A DNA stretch of 36,924 nucleotides, taken from Flavobacteriales bacterium (GTDB lineage Bacteria; Bacteroidota; Bacteroidia; Flavobacteriales_D; Sanyastnellaceae). The notes beneath the pieces are model-generated. The model ran no database searches, was not told the origin of the DNA, and worked only from the letters and a program-made list of their open reading frames with translations. The stretch is taken from the NCBI GenBank assembly GCA_947462725.1, contig CANHPZ010000009.1:1-36924 (forward strand), given 5' to 3'. Position numbers and translations under genes: made by a program. Every line of letters begins with the position of its first letter. The first letter of the stretch is position 1. This document shows, piece after piece, positions 8,312-26,533 of this stretch.

Positions 8312-8770
8312 ATGAAAAAAGTTCTCCTTTCACTGGCATTCGCAATCGGAACATTCGTGGTTGCTTCAGCCCAAACACCTGTAGCCACAGGTCCTGCAAT
8401 TTTAGTTGACAAAGAAGTTCACGATTACGGTGACATTCCATTCGGCGGCGACGGTACTTGCGAATTCAAAGTTACCAATACAGGTAATGAGCCACTTATC
8501 CTCAGCAAGTGCAAAGGATCTTGCGGTTGCACGGTTCCTAAGTGTGATCCGAACCCAATTCTTCCAGGTGAAAATTCAGTAATTACAGTGAAATATGACA
8601 CCAAGCGTCCTGGTCCTATCAACAAGTCTGTAACCATCAACTCCAATGCTACCAACGAACCTGTAAAGGTTGTTCGTATCAAAGGAAATGTTGGACCTGA
8701 TCCTAACGCAGCTCCAAGCGGTGCTCCTGAAAAGGCTCCAGCTGGTGCACCTGCCGGAGGCAATCAATAA
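8312..8770 (+). CDS. Secreted DUF1573 domain protein, paralogue A
   Basis: This 152-residue protein has a signal peptide (1-20, cut likely after ASA). A single DUF1573 domain (about 28-120) of the ASPM/SPD-2/Hydin-like beta-sandwich type follows, with HDYGDIPFGG, EFKVTNTGNEPLIL, KGSCGCTVPKC and SVTINSNATNEPVKV. The C-terminal tail is Ala/Pro/Gly-rich (PSGAPEKAPAGAPAGG). The family is abundant in Bacteroidota and its role is poorly known. Beyond the usual SCGC pair, extra cysteines at 67 and 78 give CxxxCxCxxxxC, with another at 50. The same positions are kept in the neighbouring paralogue, so the cluster is probably functional (metal or disulphides). There is no T9SS signal and no lipobox, so the mature protein is probably periplasmic or released. 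Confidence 0.88.
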   Translation: MKKVLLSLAFAIGTFVVASAQTPVATGPAILVDKEVHDYGDIPFGGDGTCEFKVTNTGNEPLILSKCKGSCGCTVPKCDPNPILPGENSVITVKYDTKRPGPINKSVTINSNATNEPVKVVRIKGNVGPDPNAAPSGAPEKAPAGAPAGGNQ

Positions 8771-8835: not shown

Positions 8836-9288
8836 ATGAAAAAACTAATCTTCACACTGTCTATTGCTTTGGGAACAGCCCTGAGCGCTTTTGCCCAACC
8901 AGAATTGGTTACTGGCCCTGCCATTACTTTGGATAAGGACACTCACGATTATGGCGATGTTGCTTTCGACGGAAATGGCGCTTGCCAATTCAAGGTAACA
9001 AACACCGGAACTGAGCCGCTTATCATCTCTGGTTGCCAAGGTTCATGCGGATGCACAGTTCCAAAGTGCGATCCTAATCCAGTTGCCCCTGGTGCGTCAT
9101 CTTTCATTGATGTGAAATACGACACCAAGCGCCCTGGTCCTTTCCAAAAATCGGTAACCATCAACTCTAACGCAGTAAATACTCCTGTTAAAGTTGTTAC
9201 TATCAAAGGAACAGTTGGCCCTGATCCAGGCGCAGTGCCAAGCGGTGCTCCTGAGAAAGCGCCAATCGGTGCTCCGGTAAAGCAATAA
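8836..9288 (+). CDS. Secreted DUF1573 domain protein, paralogue B
   Basis: This 150-residue tandem paralogue shares roughly two thirds of the mature sequence with its upstream neighbour by eye. It has a signal peptide (1-20, ending SAFA), the DUF1573 core with HDYGDVAFDG, QFKVTNTGTEPLII, QGSCGCTVPKC and SVTINSNAVNTPVKV, and the tail PSGAPEKAPIGAPVKQ. All five cysteines (50, 67, 71, 73, 78) occupy the same positions as in paralogue A. The N-terminal strand and the FDGNGACQF segment are the most diverged parts. It has no visible promoter of its own and starts 21 bp after a terminator, so expression probably depends on read-through from 8249-8278. The molecular function is unknown; a periplasmic or surface structural or metal-binding role is only a guess. 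Confidence 0.88.
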   Translation: MKKLIFTLSIALGTALSAFAQPELVTGPAITLDKDTHDYGDVAFDGNGACQFKVTNTGTEPLIISGCQGSCGCTVPKCDPNPVAPGASSFIDVKYDTKRPGPFQKSVTINSNAVNTPVKVVTIKGTVGPDPGAVPSGAPEKAPIGAPVKQ

Positions 9289-23168: not shown

Positions 23169-24209
23169 TCAGCGCACCAAGTGAAACATGCCGCGAATCT
23201 CTTCACGACGTGGCTTGCGATTGGCTTCAGTAATCATGTATGAAATCTGCCATACATAGCTGCCGGCAGGACAATTTGTATCGTTCCAAGACCCATCCCA
23301 TCCGGTGGAGTAATGATCGCCCACATAGACGCGGTCGCCCCAATTGCTGAATATTTCAAACGTCCAATCGCTGATTGTTTGAGATACCGGCAAAAACACA
23401 TCATTATTTCCGTCGGCATTAGGCGTAAATGTGTTGGGAACGAAGAACTCGCGTTCGCCTTCCGCAGGCACGTAGGTCAAAGGGGGCCTGGCGCCAGGTG
23501 TATCCTTGATATCCACGAATTCATGCGACGTATCAAACAAAGGATCAATAGTAAAGTAATCTACAAAGTAGTAGGCAACAGCAGGATCGCTGCCTCGGCG
23601 CACTTGAATGTTTTTGTCATCGTCATCGCCAAACAATCCGAAGGTCATGTAGCGATAGGGCAACTCAGGGATGAACGTGAAGATGTAGGTTTGCCATTCT
23701 TCTGAGTACACCACCGATTCAATCTTCAATTGTGGAGTATTCATGATAGGCTGATCATTATTCTGAAGCGGCGCGTCTACGCTAAACAACAAACCAATTT
23801 TATCTACCGCTAACCCGGACTGTGCCGTTGAAGTATGCGTTCCATTCGTCATGCGAAAACCAATTGCGTATGGCTTACCGACTTGCAATGGAGATGAGAG
23901 TTGCGTGCCGATGTATTCTCTTCTGTTCGAAGTTGCACGCTGACAAACCGCCACACCCATAACCGCATCGCCATCAAAAGACTGCACAAAACCCATAGAT
24001 GTTTCCGGCAAATCACACGCATCAATAGCATCGTAGTGCAGTAAATCTGGACTTGAGATACTGCTTCCGGCATTGTTCCATCCAGTAGCTCGCTGCCATT
24101 GACCCAATCCGTTGGGCATTGAACTGAGTGCTTCGAAACTGCCATTGACCAACTGGGCCGGCATTAGCGACGCAACAAACAACAATAGAATTAGAAACGT
24201 GAATTTCAT
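23169..24209 (-). CDS. Secreted protein with T9SS type B (gliding-motility-associated) C-terminal domain
   Basis: This 346-residue protein has a signal peptide (MKFTFLILLLFVASLMPAQ). A jelly-roll-like region follows (about 20-230) with LVNGSFEALSSMPNG, GWNNAGSSISSPDLLHYDA, IGFRMTNGTH and YYFVDYFTIDPL, similar to carbohydrate-binding-like domains fused to export signals. The C-terminus (about 260-346) is the type B sorting domain: FFVPNTFTPNADGNNDVFLP, WTFEIFSNWGDRVY, GWDGSWNDTNCPAGSYVWQI and a final MFHLVR. It is therefore exported by the type IX system and probably remains at the cell surface. An in-frame ATG at 24242 would put 11 residues before the signal peptide; I use 24209. Upstream TAAATTCG ends 5 nt before this ATG. 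Confidence 0.9.
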   Translation of the reverse strand: MKFTFLILLLFVASLMPAQLVNGSFEALSSMPNGLGQWQRATGWNNAGSSISSPDLLHYDAIDACDLPETSMGFVQSFDGDAVMGVAVCQRATSNRREYIGTQLSSPLQVGKPYAIGFRMTNGTHTSTAQSGLAVDKIGLLFSVDAPLQNNDQPIMNTPQLKIESVVYSEEWQTYIFTFIPELPYRYMTFGLFGDDDDKNIQVRRGSDPAVAYYFVDYFTIDPLFDTSHEFVDIKDTPGARPPLTYVPAEGEREFFVPNTFTPNADGNNDVFLPVSQTISDWTFEIFSNWGDRVYVGDHYSTGWDGSWNDTNCPAGSYVWQISYMITEANRKPRREEIRGMFHLVR

Positions 24210-24214
24210 CACAG

Positions 24215-24222
24215 CGAATTTA
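24215..24222 (-). promoter_or_regulatory. Putative -7 box TAAATTCG for the T9SS type B protein
   Basis: The - strand reads TAAATTCG, CTGTG, ATG, so 5 nt separate the box from the start codon at 24209. The in-frame ATG at 24242 would lie upstream of the transcription start. Confidence 0.45.
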
Positions 24223-24263
24223 GCCTTGCTAATGTAATGCATTCATAGTGCCTTTCGTTCTCC

Positions 24264-25268
24264 TTAAAAAAAGAATCTGCTGAAAAATGTAATGCTAAAG
24301 GCGCTGACATCCAGCACAAGCAATGACCCCTCGTTAATGGATATGGAAGGGAGTGAGGCAGCCAAACTCGCACCATACGTGAAATACTGTTGTTCGAGCG
24401 CACCACGGAATGGCAATTTGCGCTCAACGCCGGCAGCAAAATGCGGTGTTATCAATCGCTTGGGCATAAAATCACTGGGTGAGAAAGCTTGCCAAGTTCC
24501 AGACGAATTGAGCAGGTAGTGATTGGCCGGAATTTGTGATGACAGGACAAATCTTCGGACAATTCCCGACTCGATGAAATACCTTATGGGCCTGTTGTTG
24601 CGATTGAGTGTAACACGCAGTTTCAGTGGAACATCCAGCGTATTGTAAGTCATTTTCTGGCTGACCACATCCACAAAAAAAGTATCGACTTCGCCAATGT
24701 CCGGTGGTTCCGTGATGGTGAAATATTCATAGAACAATTCATTCGCCTCACTACCAAAACGCAGAAGACTATCCACTAGCAATTGATCTTCATTGACCAG
24801 AGTCAGGTATTGCGACTTGATTTGATTCAAGCCTGCGCCGGTAACTAATGAAAGCTCAATTTTTCCATTGGGAGAATTGACGGATGCGAAGCGCGCCCCA
24901 AAGTCAACATAGGCTAGCGCATTCGTTTGCACGGGGTGTCTTCTTCCAACGAAATCATTCAGAGTGGATAGATTACTACTAAAAGTTTGAAAGGAAGAAA
25001 TCGTGTTGTTTACACCCAAGCCAACGCCCGCATTCCAAATATGAAGACGCTGCTTGGCGATAGGCGCTGTTCCCTTCTCGGGCAGTGCTGTTGAATCGGA
25101 TGCCAAAGCACTATCATCACGTTCTATAAAGATGGTGTCGCCATCAATGATGAGCGTATCACGCATACACAATAAATCCAAGCAATTGGATGCAATACCC
25201 GAATAAGGCATCACCCCAAACACGAAACTCGCCAAAAGGACGAAGTATTTCAATTGCGCTGCATGCAC
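24264..25268 (-). CDS. Outer-membrane beta-barrel protein in sigma-factor operon
   Basis: This 334-residue protein has an N-terminal signal-like hydrophobic stretch (YFVLLASFVFGVMPYSGIAS) and two early cysteines. A polar acidic segment (DTLIIDGDTIFIERDDSALA) comes next, then alternating strands typical of an outer-membrane barrel: NAGVGLGVNN, ALAYVDFGARFASV, IELSLVTGAGLNQI, LKLRVTLNRN, HFAAGVERKLPF and a terminal strand ending ITFFSRFFF with C-terminal Phe. I recognise no precise family beyond the PorT/OmpA-like barrel look. It is the third gene of a - strand operon (35 bp after a single-pass membrane protein, itself overlapping an ECF sigma gene), so it may be the outer-membrane sensor or the main target of that sigma factor. 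Confidence 0.75.
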   Translation of the reverse strand: MHAAQLKYFVLLASFVFGVMPYSGIASNCLDLLCMRDTLIIDGDTIFIERDDSALASDSTALPEKGTAPIAKQRLHIWNAGVGLGVNNTISSFQTFSSNLSTLNDFVGRRHPVQTNALAYVDFGARFASVNSPNGKIELSLVTGAGLNQIKSQYLTLVNEDQLLVDSLLRFGSEANELFYEYFTITEPPDIGEVDTFFVDVVSQKMTYNTLDVPLKLRVTLNRNNRPIRYFIESGIVRRFVLSSQIPANHYLLNSSGTWQAFSPSDFMPKRLITPHFAAGVERKLPFRGALEQQYFTYGASLAASLPSISINEGSLLVLDVSAFSITFFSRFFF

Positions 25269-25303
25269 CTGCCTAGATTATTACTTGGCAAGATAGGTGG
25301 GAA

Positions 25304-25864
25304 TTATTTTTTCTGCTGACCGTCCGTATAGGTTTTTACTTTCAGGCCGCGCTTAGCGCCGCCAGAGGTCGGCTGTTGTGATTCCTTTTCAGTATTCACC
25401 TCGGTTGCATTCGAAACTTGTTGGGCATCGCTTGATCCAACCGAAGTTTCTTCTGCAACAGTTTGACCGGTCGATGCTGTCTCATTTGAAATTTGTTTCG
25501 CATGACCATTCGAGTTGCGCTCTGACGGTGCATTCTTGGTAGAACATTGTGACTCATTCGAAAGCAACACCGCAGGAGCGGCATTTGCCGCTTCAAGAAC
25601 GGGCTGAGCGGTTTCAGCACTCTGTGTTGATTGCTCGACAACAATGGCCTCGTTCACTGGTGTTTCAGAGGATAAGTTCAAAGCTACCGCTGCTCCTGTA
25701 ACAAGGATTGCGAGATACCACACATTGAATCGCGTAGCGCTCATTTTGGTGAAGTTAGACCACCAAAGCTTCTTGCGCATTCCGCTATATGCCGATGCCG
25801 GCACCTCGGGCTGATAGTTCGCCATAGTGGAGCGAACCTGATTGTAGAAACGATCTTCAGACAT
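25304..25864 (-). CDS. Single-pass membrane protein, candidate non-classical anti-sigma factor
   Basis: This 186-residue protein has a cytoplasmic-looking basic N-terminus of about 45 residues (MSEDRFYNQVRSTMANYQPE, then MRKKLWWSNFTKM). One membrane helix (about 47-64, FNVWYLAILVTGAAVALNL) follows, then a long low-complexity tail rich in Ser, Thr, Gln, Glu and Ala, ending in a basic patch (KRGLKVKTYTDGQQKK). I see no zinc anti-sigma motif and no FecR domain. Its ATG overlaps the stop of the ECF sigma gene by 8 bp, so the two are translationally coupled, as in sigma/anti-sigma pairs. The N-terminal part resembles, by eye, the short cytosolic heads that precede barrels in other Bacteroidota sigma operons. 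The anti-sigma role is inference from position and topology. Confidence 0.7.
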   Translation of the reverse strand: MSEDRFYNQVRSTMANYQPEVPASAYSGMRKKLWWSNFTKMSATRFNVWYLAILVTGAAVALNLSSETPVNEAIVVEQSTQSAETAQPVLEAANAAPAVLLSNESQCSTKNAPSERNSNGHAKQISNETASTGQTVAEETSVGSSDAQQVSNATEVNTEKESQQPTSGGAKRGLKVKTYTDGQQKK

Positions 25865-26414
25865 GCTCTTTAATTTTTACTGTTGCAATATTTTTCAGTT
25901 CACGTTGTAAGTAAGTCTTGGCGCGGGAAAGCTGCGACTTAGAAGTATTGACGTCAATACCAAGCATATCGCTGATTTCCTTATGCATGAAGCCTTCGAC
26001 CACGTATAGATTGAATACTGTTTTGTAGCCTGAGGGCAGATTTTCGATGCATAACATCATTTCCTCTGCGGTGAATTCCAGATCTTCGAAGTGCATGGGC
26101 TCATCATTGGTGCGAATGAGCTCGTCTACGTCGGCCTGATAGGCATGTTTCAGATTCTTCCTATAATTGGTTATGGAAGTGTTTACTGCAATTCGTCGCA
26201 ACCAACCTTCGAAGCTGCCTTCGTTATTGTAGCTGCCGATATTGTTGTAAACCTTCACGAAAACCTCTTGTAAGACATCCTGTGCTTCCATACGGTTGCG
26301 TGCATAGCGCAAACAAATACCGAAGAGAAGCGACGAAAATTTCTTGTACAGAGCATCCTGCGAGGCTCGTTGCCCGCGGATACACCCGTCAATCAATTCT
26401 CTGTTGATGTCCAT
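25857..26414 (-). CDS. ECF-type RNA polymerase sigma factor
   Basis: This 185-residue protein has sigma region 2 at about 18-85 (LFGICLRYARNRMEAQDVLQ, then EVFVKVYNNIGSY and FEGWLRRIAVNTSITNYRKN) and region 4 at about 120-175 (LPSGYKTVFNLYVVEGFMHK, then EISDMLGIDVNTSKSQLSRA). These are standard for extracytoplasmic-function sigma factors, which direct polymerase to a small regulon. Its stop overlaps the ATG of the membrane protein gene by 8 bp, and an outer-membrane barrel gene follows. Upstream there is only a weak box (TATCTTGC, 5 nt from the ATG) and a terminator-like hairpin of the preceding gene. Many ECF operons autoregulate; I see no clear ECF-type promoter here. Confidence 0.93.
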   Translation of the reverse strand: MDINRELIDGCIRGQRASQDALYKKFSSLLFGICLRYARNRMEAQDVLQEVFVKVYNNIGSYNNEGSFEGWLRRIAVNTSITNYRKNLKHAYQADVDELIRTNDEPMHFEDLEFTAEEMMLCIENLPSGYKTVFNLYVVEGFMHKEISDMLGIDVNTSKSQLSRAKTYLQRELKNIATVKIKEHV

Positions 26415-26464
26415 ACGTGCAAGATAGACATTAATCGGATGGGGATGGTTGCGTGAGGGAAACC

Positions 26465-26512
26465 AAAAAACGGTGCGGCTTTGTGGTTATTTTTTTTTAA
26501 CCGCATAGCCGC
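26465..26512 (-). terminator. Hairpin terminator after the DUF5916 gene
   Basis: On the - strand, AGCCGC/GCGGCT plus seven further pairs form a 13-bp stem with one mismatch (26475-26488 with 26499-26512). The loop is about ten bases and A-rich. Six Ts begin 4 nt after the stem. It lies 21 bp past the stop at 26534. Confidence 0.65.
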
Positions 26513-26533
26513 AAAGCATAAGTTTTGCGGGGG

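Follow-up and report, generated by a model that had tools for sequence, protein, structure and literature searches.

Four genes lie in series on the minus strand of the window, by which we mean the whole 36,924-nucleotide stretch of DNA that was analysed. The first (25857..26414) encodes an ECF sigma factor of 185 residues, in which both Sigma70 regions, Sigma70_r2 and r4_2, scored over the Pfam cut-off. The next ORF (25304..25864) overlaps the sigma gene by 8 bp and encodes a 186-residue single-pass protein, hereafter the middle protein, which is a candidate anti-sigma factor made up of a head, a helix, a disordered tether and a C-terminal strand motif. The barrel gene (24264..25268) begins with GTG 35 bp further on, and its 334-residue product has a signal peptide and is modelled by AlphaFold2 as an 8-stranded outer-membrane barrel. 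After a gap of 21 bp comes a fourth gene (23169..24242), whose 357 residues comprise a signal peptide, a jelly-roll domain and a T9SS type B (CHU_C) C-terminal domain, and the gene after that is bshC (NCBIfam TIGR03998, 426.6 bits). The original prediction had described the first three genes, namely an ECF sigma factor, a one-helix protein of 186 residues and a barrel-like protein of 334 residues on one strand, and we found all three with the overlap and the gap that it gave. An ECF-type promoter, GCAACC-N17-GTCTA, lies on the same strand at 26425..26452, with the sigma start codon 10 nt downstream. Between this promoter and the upstream DUF5916 gene is an inverted repeat (26474-26513), perhaps a terminator, whose arms are 16 nt long and whose loop contains a T/A run. 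Elsewhere in the window, on the plus strand, two adjacent genes (8312-8770 and 8836-9288) encode small exported proteins of 152 and 150 residues that look similar by eye and are likely a tandem duplication.

The gene order was followed through 36 loci of the window's GTDB family, that is, the window and L055-L089. A sigma query matched 57 of 60 relatives. A one-helix middle protein (163-226 residues) comes next after sigma in 34 of the 36 family loci, and in the other two the contig ends at sigma; the two genes are spaced by a median of -1 bp in these 34 loci, with overlap frequent. A barrel ORF follows the middle protein in 33/36 (three of these cut by a contig end), and the T9SS gene stands third after sigma in 27/36. 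Among the nine loci without a third-place T9SS gene, L055 shows the gene's start, seven end earlier and L076 lacks it at that place. These data show that the three-gene arrangement is more than chance and that its order is conserved across the family, which was one of the points on which the original prediction had said it could fail. By sequence the middle protein diverges fast: when 60 relatives were searched with it, 21 gave matches with an E-value no higher than 0.1, some of them at chance level. The barrel profile matched 95 of 114 family genomes, 30 of which had supplied its rows, and one of 185 other genomes of the order (G099), misses that were not listed individually being assumed to lie outside the family because the list was sorted by kinship. 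Close named records are Flavobacteriales and Crocinitomicaceae MAGs, part of them labelled Chryseobacterium gleum. Alignments were made from 30 of 32 listed barrels (L073 and L075, which were open, left out), 31 of 33 middle proteins (L075 and L077, with doubtful starts, left out) and 26 of 28 fourth genes (L055, open, and L082, with a doubtful start, left out).

Hydropathy places the middle protein's single hydrophobic helix at about residues 46-64 (25673..25729, minus strand), after a basic head of residues 1-45 (25730..25864, minus strand) that would lie in the cytosol and that served in the hhalign comparisons described below. Zinc anti-sigma (ZAS) factors carry a HisX3CysX2Cys motif in the head. 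The head of the middle protein has no His or Cys in residues 1-45 and thus no zinc anti-sigma motif. A FecR-type assignment, which calls for a FecR domain and a TonB-dependent receptor as partner, fails as well, since neither Pfam nor NCBIfam gave a FecR match and the partner is modelled as an 8-strand barrel; on both counts the original prediction was right. No Pfam or NCBIfam family reached its cut-off anywhere in the middle protein, and when PDB sequences were searched with the middle profile the sole match, to part of VirB10 at E 0.16, was dismissed. The tether measures 103-163 residues in the family (median 125, 34 loci), is rich in A, E, V, S, T and P, and is free to vary in both sequence and length; we judge it to be disordered from this composition and variability. 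By eye, the middle proteins of most relatives have a short stretch that looks like a strand at their C-terminus or close to it; in the window this stretch reads GLKVKTY (residues 173-179; 25328..25348, minus strand) and may be a docking strand.

The barrel protein matched no Pfam or NCBIfam family over cut-off and no TonB-dependent receptor. Its description as barrel-like is borne out by the AlphaFold2 model (30 alignment rows; mean pLDDT 85.5), in which we counted eight long strands. The nearest solved folds are NspA (Z 18.4, 2.4 Å over 148 residues) and OmpA (Z 18.2), and none of the 50 PDB structure matches listed is named as a T9SS or PorP/SprF barrel, which excludes neither. Across the barrels of 30 relatives, Pfam matched OMP_b-brl in 4/30 (best E 2.8e-5) and OMP_b-brl_2 in 4/30 (best E 0.0018). 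Conservation is strongest in two places. The N-tail carries the motif DTLIIDGDTIFI (residues 37-48; 25125..25160, minus strand), in which D37 is invariant in 30/30 barrels and D42 is present in 90% or more, and T38 and G43 are highly conserved too; the long outer loop 2 carries E193-x-D195-T196 (24681..24692, minus strand), in which E193 is invariant (30/30) and D195 and T196 are present in 90% or more. After Met1, the seven most conserved residues belong either to the N-tail (D37, T38, D42 and D58) or to loop 2 (E193, D195 and T196), none of them lies in a strand, and the N-tail set precedes strand 1. By the usual topology of such barrels the N-tail would face the periplasm and loop 2 the outside. 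As conservation is concentrated at these two sites, we propose that the barrel carries a change of state inward from the surface.

The fourth gene is a predicted T9SS type B cargo gene, judged by its C-terminal CHU_C/TIGR04131 domain (PF13585, 1.5e-14; TIGR04131, 4.4e-11, 42.8 bits vs a cut-off of 35) and by a signal peptide recognised from hydropathy. Its modelled protein (pLDDT 78.0) places a jelly-roll domain before the T9SS domain, and the best fold matches, at Z 9-11, are carbohydrate-binding modules and other jelly rolls such as cyclases. Its place in the operon and its conservation in the family suggest that the fourth protein is an outer partner or a ligand carrier, although the gene may be only a regulon member.

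The promoter recurs with the operon. In 31 of 36 family loci a GCAACC occurs 34-63 bp ahead of sigma (shuffles, 1.5%), and 30 of these 31 have GTY after it, at a spacing of 17 bp in 29 and 16 bp in one, extended to GTYT in 22. Within the window the pattern has two matches vs 0.16 expected, the second at 26272-26299 inside the sigma gene, and among 48 sister loci (the fused-barrel loci L163-L165 included) GCAACC falls within 110 bp before sigma in 26. The best reading of these sequences is that sigma drives its own operon via a GCAACC-N17-GTYTW promoter. In the window about 10 nt (26414-26425) lie between the -10 box and the sigma start, and in six further genomes of the genus this distance is 6-9 nt; the sigma message may therefore be nearly leaderless. 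Another ECF sigma gene (L255:4108-4623, minus strand; G002:C96) has the same pattern 47 bp upstream, with possible cross-control between sigmas.

Genome-wide, the fuller pattern gave 75 matches in eight genomes of the genus vs 74 for a reversed control, and 8 vs 20 in the window's own genome. Such counts are at control level and hence mostly chance, so we used only matches filtered by position. Of 74 that could be placed in the eight genomes, 21 precede a start codon outside other long ORFs, and seven of those are the sigma operon itself, the eighth genome's copy having been excluded for an antisense ORF. Among the other 14 targets, 11 have a strong N-terminal hydrophobic stretch resembling a signal peptide, a twelfth (L264) acquires one only from an earlier start, and the remaining two are an ECF sigma and a soluble protein; orthologues were counted separately, and the 12 exported-type targets make seven kinds by their starts. 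A curated T9SS sorting domain was found in six of eight candidate targets of relatives that were scanned; of these six, L267 and L268 are orthologous, and L224 adjoins an ECF paralogue and had failed the position filter. Two of the eight (L234 and L237) run off the end of the stretch, and none of the eight is a part of the T9SS machine. With a scrambled -35 box, 0/30 loci were promoter-like vs 8/30 for the real pattern (Fisher p 0.005), and with the sigma operon set aside the real pattern gave 4/26 (p 0.04); real loci past those 30 were at first fetched by choice and were later completed bar one. Applied to the window's own genome, the filter by position left this operon and an ECF paralogue (C8:32075-32101), with no cargo gene. 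The link to cargo thus rests on the relatives, and it could belong to the ECF paralogue.

Outside the family, we examined 45 sister loci (L090-L134), our selection among the related ECF sigma matches rather than all of them. The ORF next to sigma is at least 260 residues long in 40 of the 45; it begins with the same head, helix and tether and then runs on. We had expected these fused ORFs to end in a barrel. Their common C-terminus instead matches CHU_C, and the barrel profile found no match there. Pfam detected PKD in 28 and CHU_C in 28 of the 40 long ORFs. For the sigma trees and the head comparison, we labelled 33 rows by hand as fused CHU_C, using a home-made HMM at E 1e-3 (some matches partial), Pfam and reading of the alignment; since Pfam backs CHU_C in 28/40 ORFs, up to five of these labels rest on less. 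Ten sister ORFs were scanned singly, and four of them matched barrel models, three of these below the curated cut-off. The window's own genome holds two loci of the wider group: L095 (G000:C8:31500-37500), with an ECF sigma and a 424-residue head-helix ORF of CHU_C type by the home-made HMM, and L097 (G000:C54:1000-8000), with an ECF sigma and a 424-residue ORF that matches a barrel weakly. Three loci (L100, L107 and L128) have an ECF sigma, then a one-helix protein of 187-199 residues and then a second protein of 356-363 residues. We considered them as split systems of the same kind and rejected them, their second proteins matching neither half.

Fused ORFs that do end in a barrel were found with the barrel profile, which gave two matches outside the family among 198 genomes of the class, in G437 (E 3.6e-6) and G468 (E 9.0e-6). 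These matches are the C-terminal barrels of 424- and 511-residue ORFs that have a head and a helix and follow immediately after an ECF sigma. Barrel matches beyond the family are of modest strength (E 3.5e-6 to 9.0e-6 per genome), and they span the profile incompletely. A fused ORF of Tenacibaculum (L145) scored 89% on the middle profile, through its head, and 72% on the barrel profile, and L105 scored 76% and 58%; L111 scored 64% for the head and 3.5% for the barrel, and L097, L123, L126 and L130 were under 15% on both profiles alike. As a query, the Tenacibaculum fused ORF matched in 0 of 150 genomes, a set with no positive control among them, so that the zero carries no weight. In G099 (L165:2400-2500), sigma is followed by a head-helix-tether ORF, and the barrel lies in a different frame at a run of ten A; the frame break may stem from an error in assembly or reads, from phase variation of the run, or from an ongoing fission. 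A gene 42 bp 3' of a fused-barrel ORF (L164:1-1350, minus strand) is cut at its C-terminus, which is T9SS type A-like by eye.

The arrangement of these ORFs is that of the dual-membrane-spanning (Dma) layout, described as an N-terminal anti-sigma domain, a helix, a disordered tether and a barrel, beside an ECF sigma (PMC13088901). With the helix excluded, the head in 34 family rows aligned by hhalign to that of the 33 CHU_C-labelled rows at 96.7% (score 41.0), and to that of ten rows taken as fused-barrel at 96.3% (score 39.3), these ten including L123 and L126 despite their lack of a Pfam barrel match. Column shuffles scored as high in 0/60 trials in each test, the best reaching 13.5 (CHU_C) and 8.3 (fused-barrel), and with L123 and L126 dropped the eight remaining fused-barrel rows gave 96.9% (score 43.2; best of 60 shuffles, 10.3). 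By these alignments the head of the middle protein is homologous to the heads of both the PKD-CHU_C and the fused-barrel ORFs. The original prediction could not assign the middle protein to any known anti-sigma family, a verdict now superseded by the homology of its head to the heads of Dma-layout ORFs. The kinship to Dma runs through fused ORFs of the same layout in relatives, and the comparison with the published Dma system is one of layout.

A sigma tree bears on how the barrel came to be separate. It contains 24 of the 36 family rows, and its L145 row begins at an internal Met. The sigma rows of split systems form one clade (100/99), and nearest to it are the fused-barrel rows L130 (97/62) and L105 (94/68); a quicker tree put L130 in the same place with support of 81. 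L130 is thus the nearest sigma row despite its low profile score on both halves. Because the split clade lies nearest to fused-barrel rows, fission is favoured, and the separate barrel probably arose by fission rather than by fusion. The tree has no fixed root and the SH-aLRT values of the fused-barrel sisters are weak (62 and 68), which stops short of proof.

We think it likely that the operon is a split, autoregulated sigma control system of the Dma type with a T9SS surface partner. It is best read as a divided Dma because its head and its barrel match the two halves of Dma-layout fused ORFs. Sigma would drive its own operon from the GCAACC promoter, and the head of the middle protein would bind sigma and hold it in the cytosol, while the one helix anchors the protein in the inner membrane and the disordered tether crosses the periplasm. 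The strand motif that closes the tether would dock on the conserved periplasmic N-tail of the barrel, a contact we infer because the N-tail and the tether end look conserved while the tether varies. A change at the surface, perhaps binding of the fourth protein, may then pass inward through the barrel and loosen the hold on sigma, the direction being our assumption, and the freed sigma would transcribe its own operon and, in relatives, T9SS-cargo genes. The original prediction had proposed a relay through cytosol, inner membrane, periplasm and outer membrane; the layout is backed by the homology of head and barrel to fused ORFs, whereas the T9SS-linked fourth gene and the promoter had been overlooked.

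The same genes could be read without any signalling through the barrel. The middle protein would then be an ordinary membrane anti-sigma factor freed by inner-membrane proteolysis, with the barrel and the fourth gene as output only. ECF operons often contain regulon genes, and the other GCAACC targets of relatives are also exported, so that exported neighbours would be expected. However, sister loci have head and barrel fused, and the barrel N-tail and the tether end look conserved whereas the tether does not, and we judge this reading unlikely. Even more improbable, to the point that we give it little weight, is that the middle protein is a tether or assembly partner of the barrel and sigma is controlled elsewhere. 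This would agree with the absence of any Pfam or NCBIfam model that names the protein an anti-sigma factor; it sits poorly with a gene directly after sigma, so often overlapping it, and with a basic head that is on the cytosolic side and homologous to Dma-type heads beside ECF sigmas.

A further reading overlaps that of a split Dma and is possible, if doubtful: the system would sense T9SS export itself, arriving type B proteins being the input and sigma tuning cargo expression. It draws on the frequency of CHU_C and PKD in ORFs beside related sigmas (28/40 for each), on the CHU_C domain of the fourth gene, on the GCAACC promoters that precede T9SS-cargo genes in relatives, and on the precedent of PorA, a CTD protein that acts on the pathway of an ECF sigma (PMC7712824). 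Against it, the window's T9SS domain is on a separate protein and the eight scanned targets include no T9SS machine part; the anchored protein would also have to reach the T9SS. More broadly, and as a tentative proposal that we would not yet lean on, Flavobacteriales may have a class of T9SS-coupled trans-envelope anti-sigma factors, in which, in sister loci, a PKD and T9SS-tailed chain could be drawn to the surface by the T9SS while its head holds sigma. In the window's family this chain would be split among tether, barrel and T9SS protein, with a loop between sigma and cargo. If such a class is real, a loop is closed between surface secretion and transcription.

How a surface signal reaches sigma without TonB-dependent receptors in Bacteroidota is a largely open question. 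A naturally divided Dma would give separate pieces for a direct test of the step between tether and barrel, and sister proteins with a T9SS tail suggest that transcription is coupled to secretion at the cell surface. Both the split-Dma and the T9SS-tail readings make checkable predictions about the promoter, the contacts and the partner.

In the FecI-FecR-FecA system, an outer-membrane protein signals via a single-pass anti-sigma protein to an ECF sigma. The route proposed here is alike in its order of parts and differs in that the window has no FecR match and that its outer-membrane protein, a small barrel of eight strands, matches no TonB-dependent receptor. In PorXY-SigP with PorA of Porphyromonas gingivalis, a CTD protein of the T9SS has an influence on the ECF sigma in control of T9SS genes (PMC7712824). 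The likeness is a T9SS CTD protein linked to an ECF sigma; the difference is that the P. gingivalis pathway works with a two-component system, whereas the window has a dedicated one-helix protein in the sigma operon. The SM6 promoters of Flavobacterium psychrophilum (PMC9723704) differ from the present case, where the targets are T9SS cargo genes, the -35 box lying outside this comparison. Apart from the founding Dma1 paper (PNAS 2024), which was excepted, our literature search found no description of a split Dma or of an anti-sigma factor with a T9SS domain. The closest system is Dma, with Dma1 described as the first representative of this class (PMC13088901). The window shares with it an anti-sigma-type head, one helix, a disordered tether, an outer-membrane barrel and an adjacent ECF sigma (PMC13088901). 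It differs in that the tether and the barrel are two proteins and in that the operon continues with a T9SS type B protein. Because the barrel here has an ORF and a signal peptide of its own, we file the system as a split variant and not as a Dma protein.
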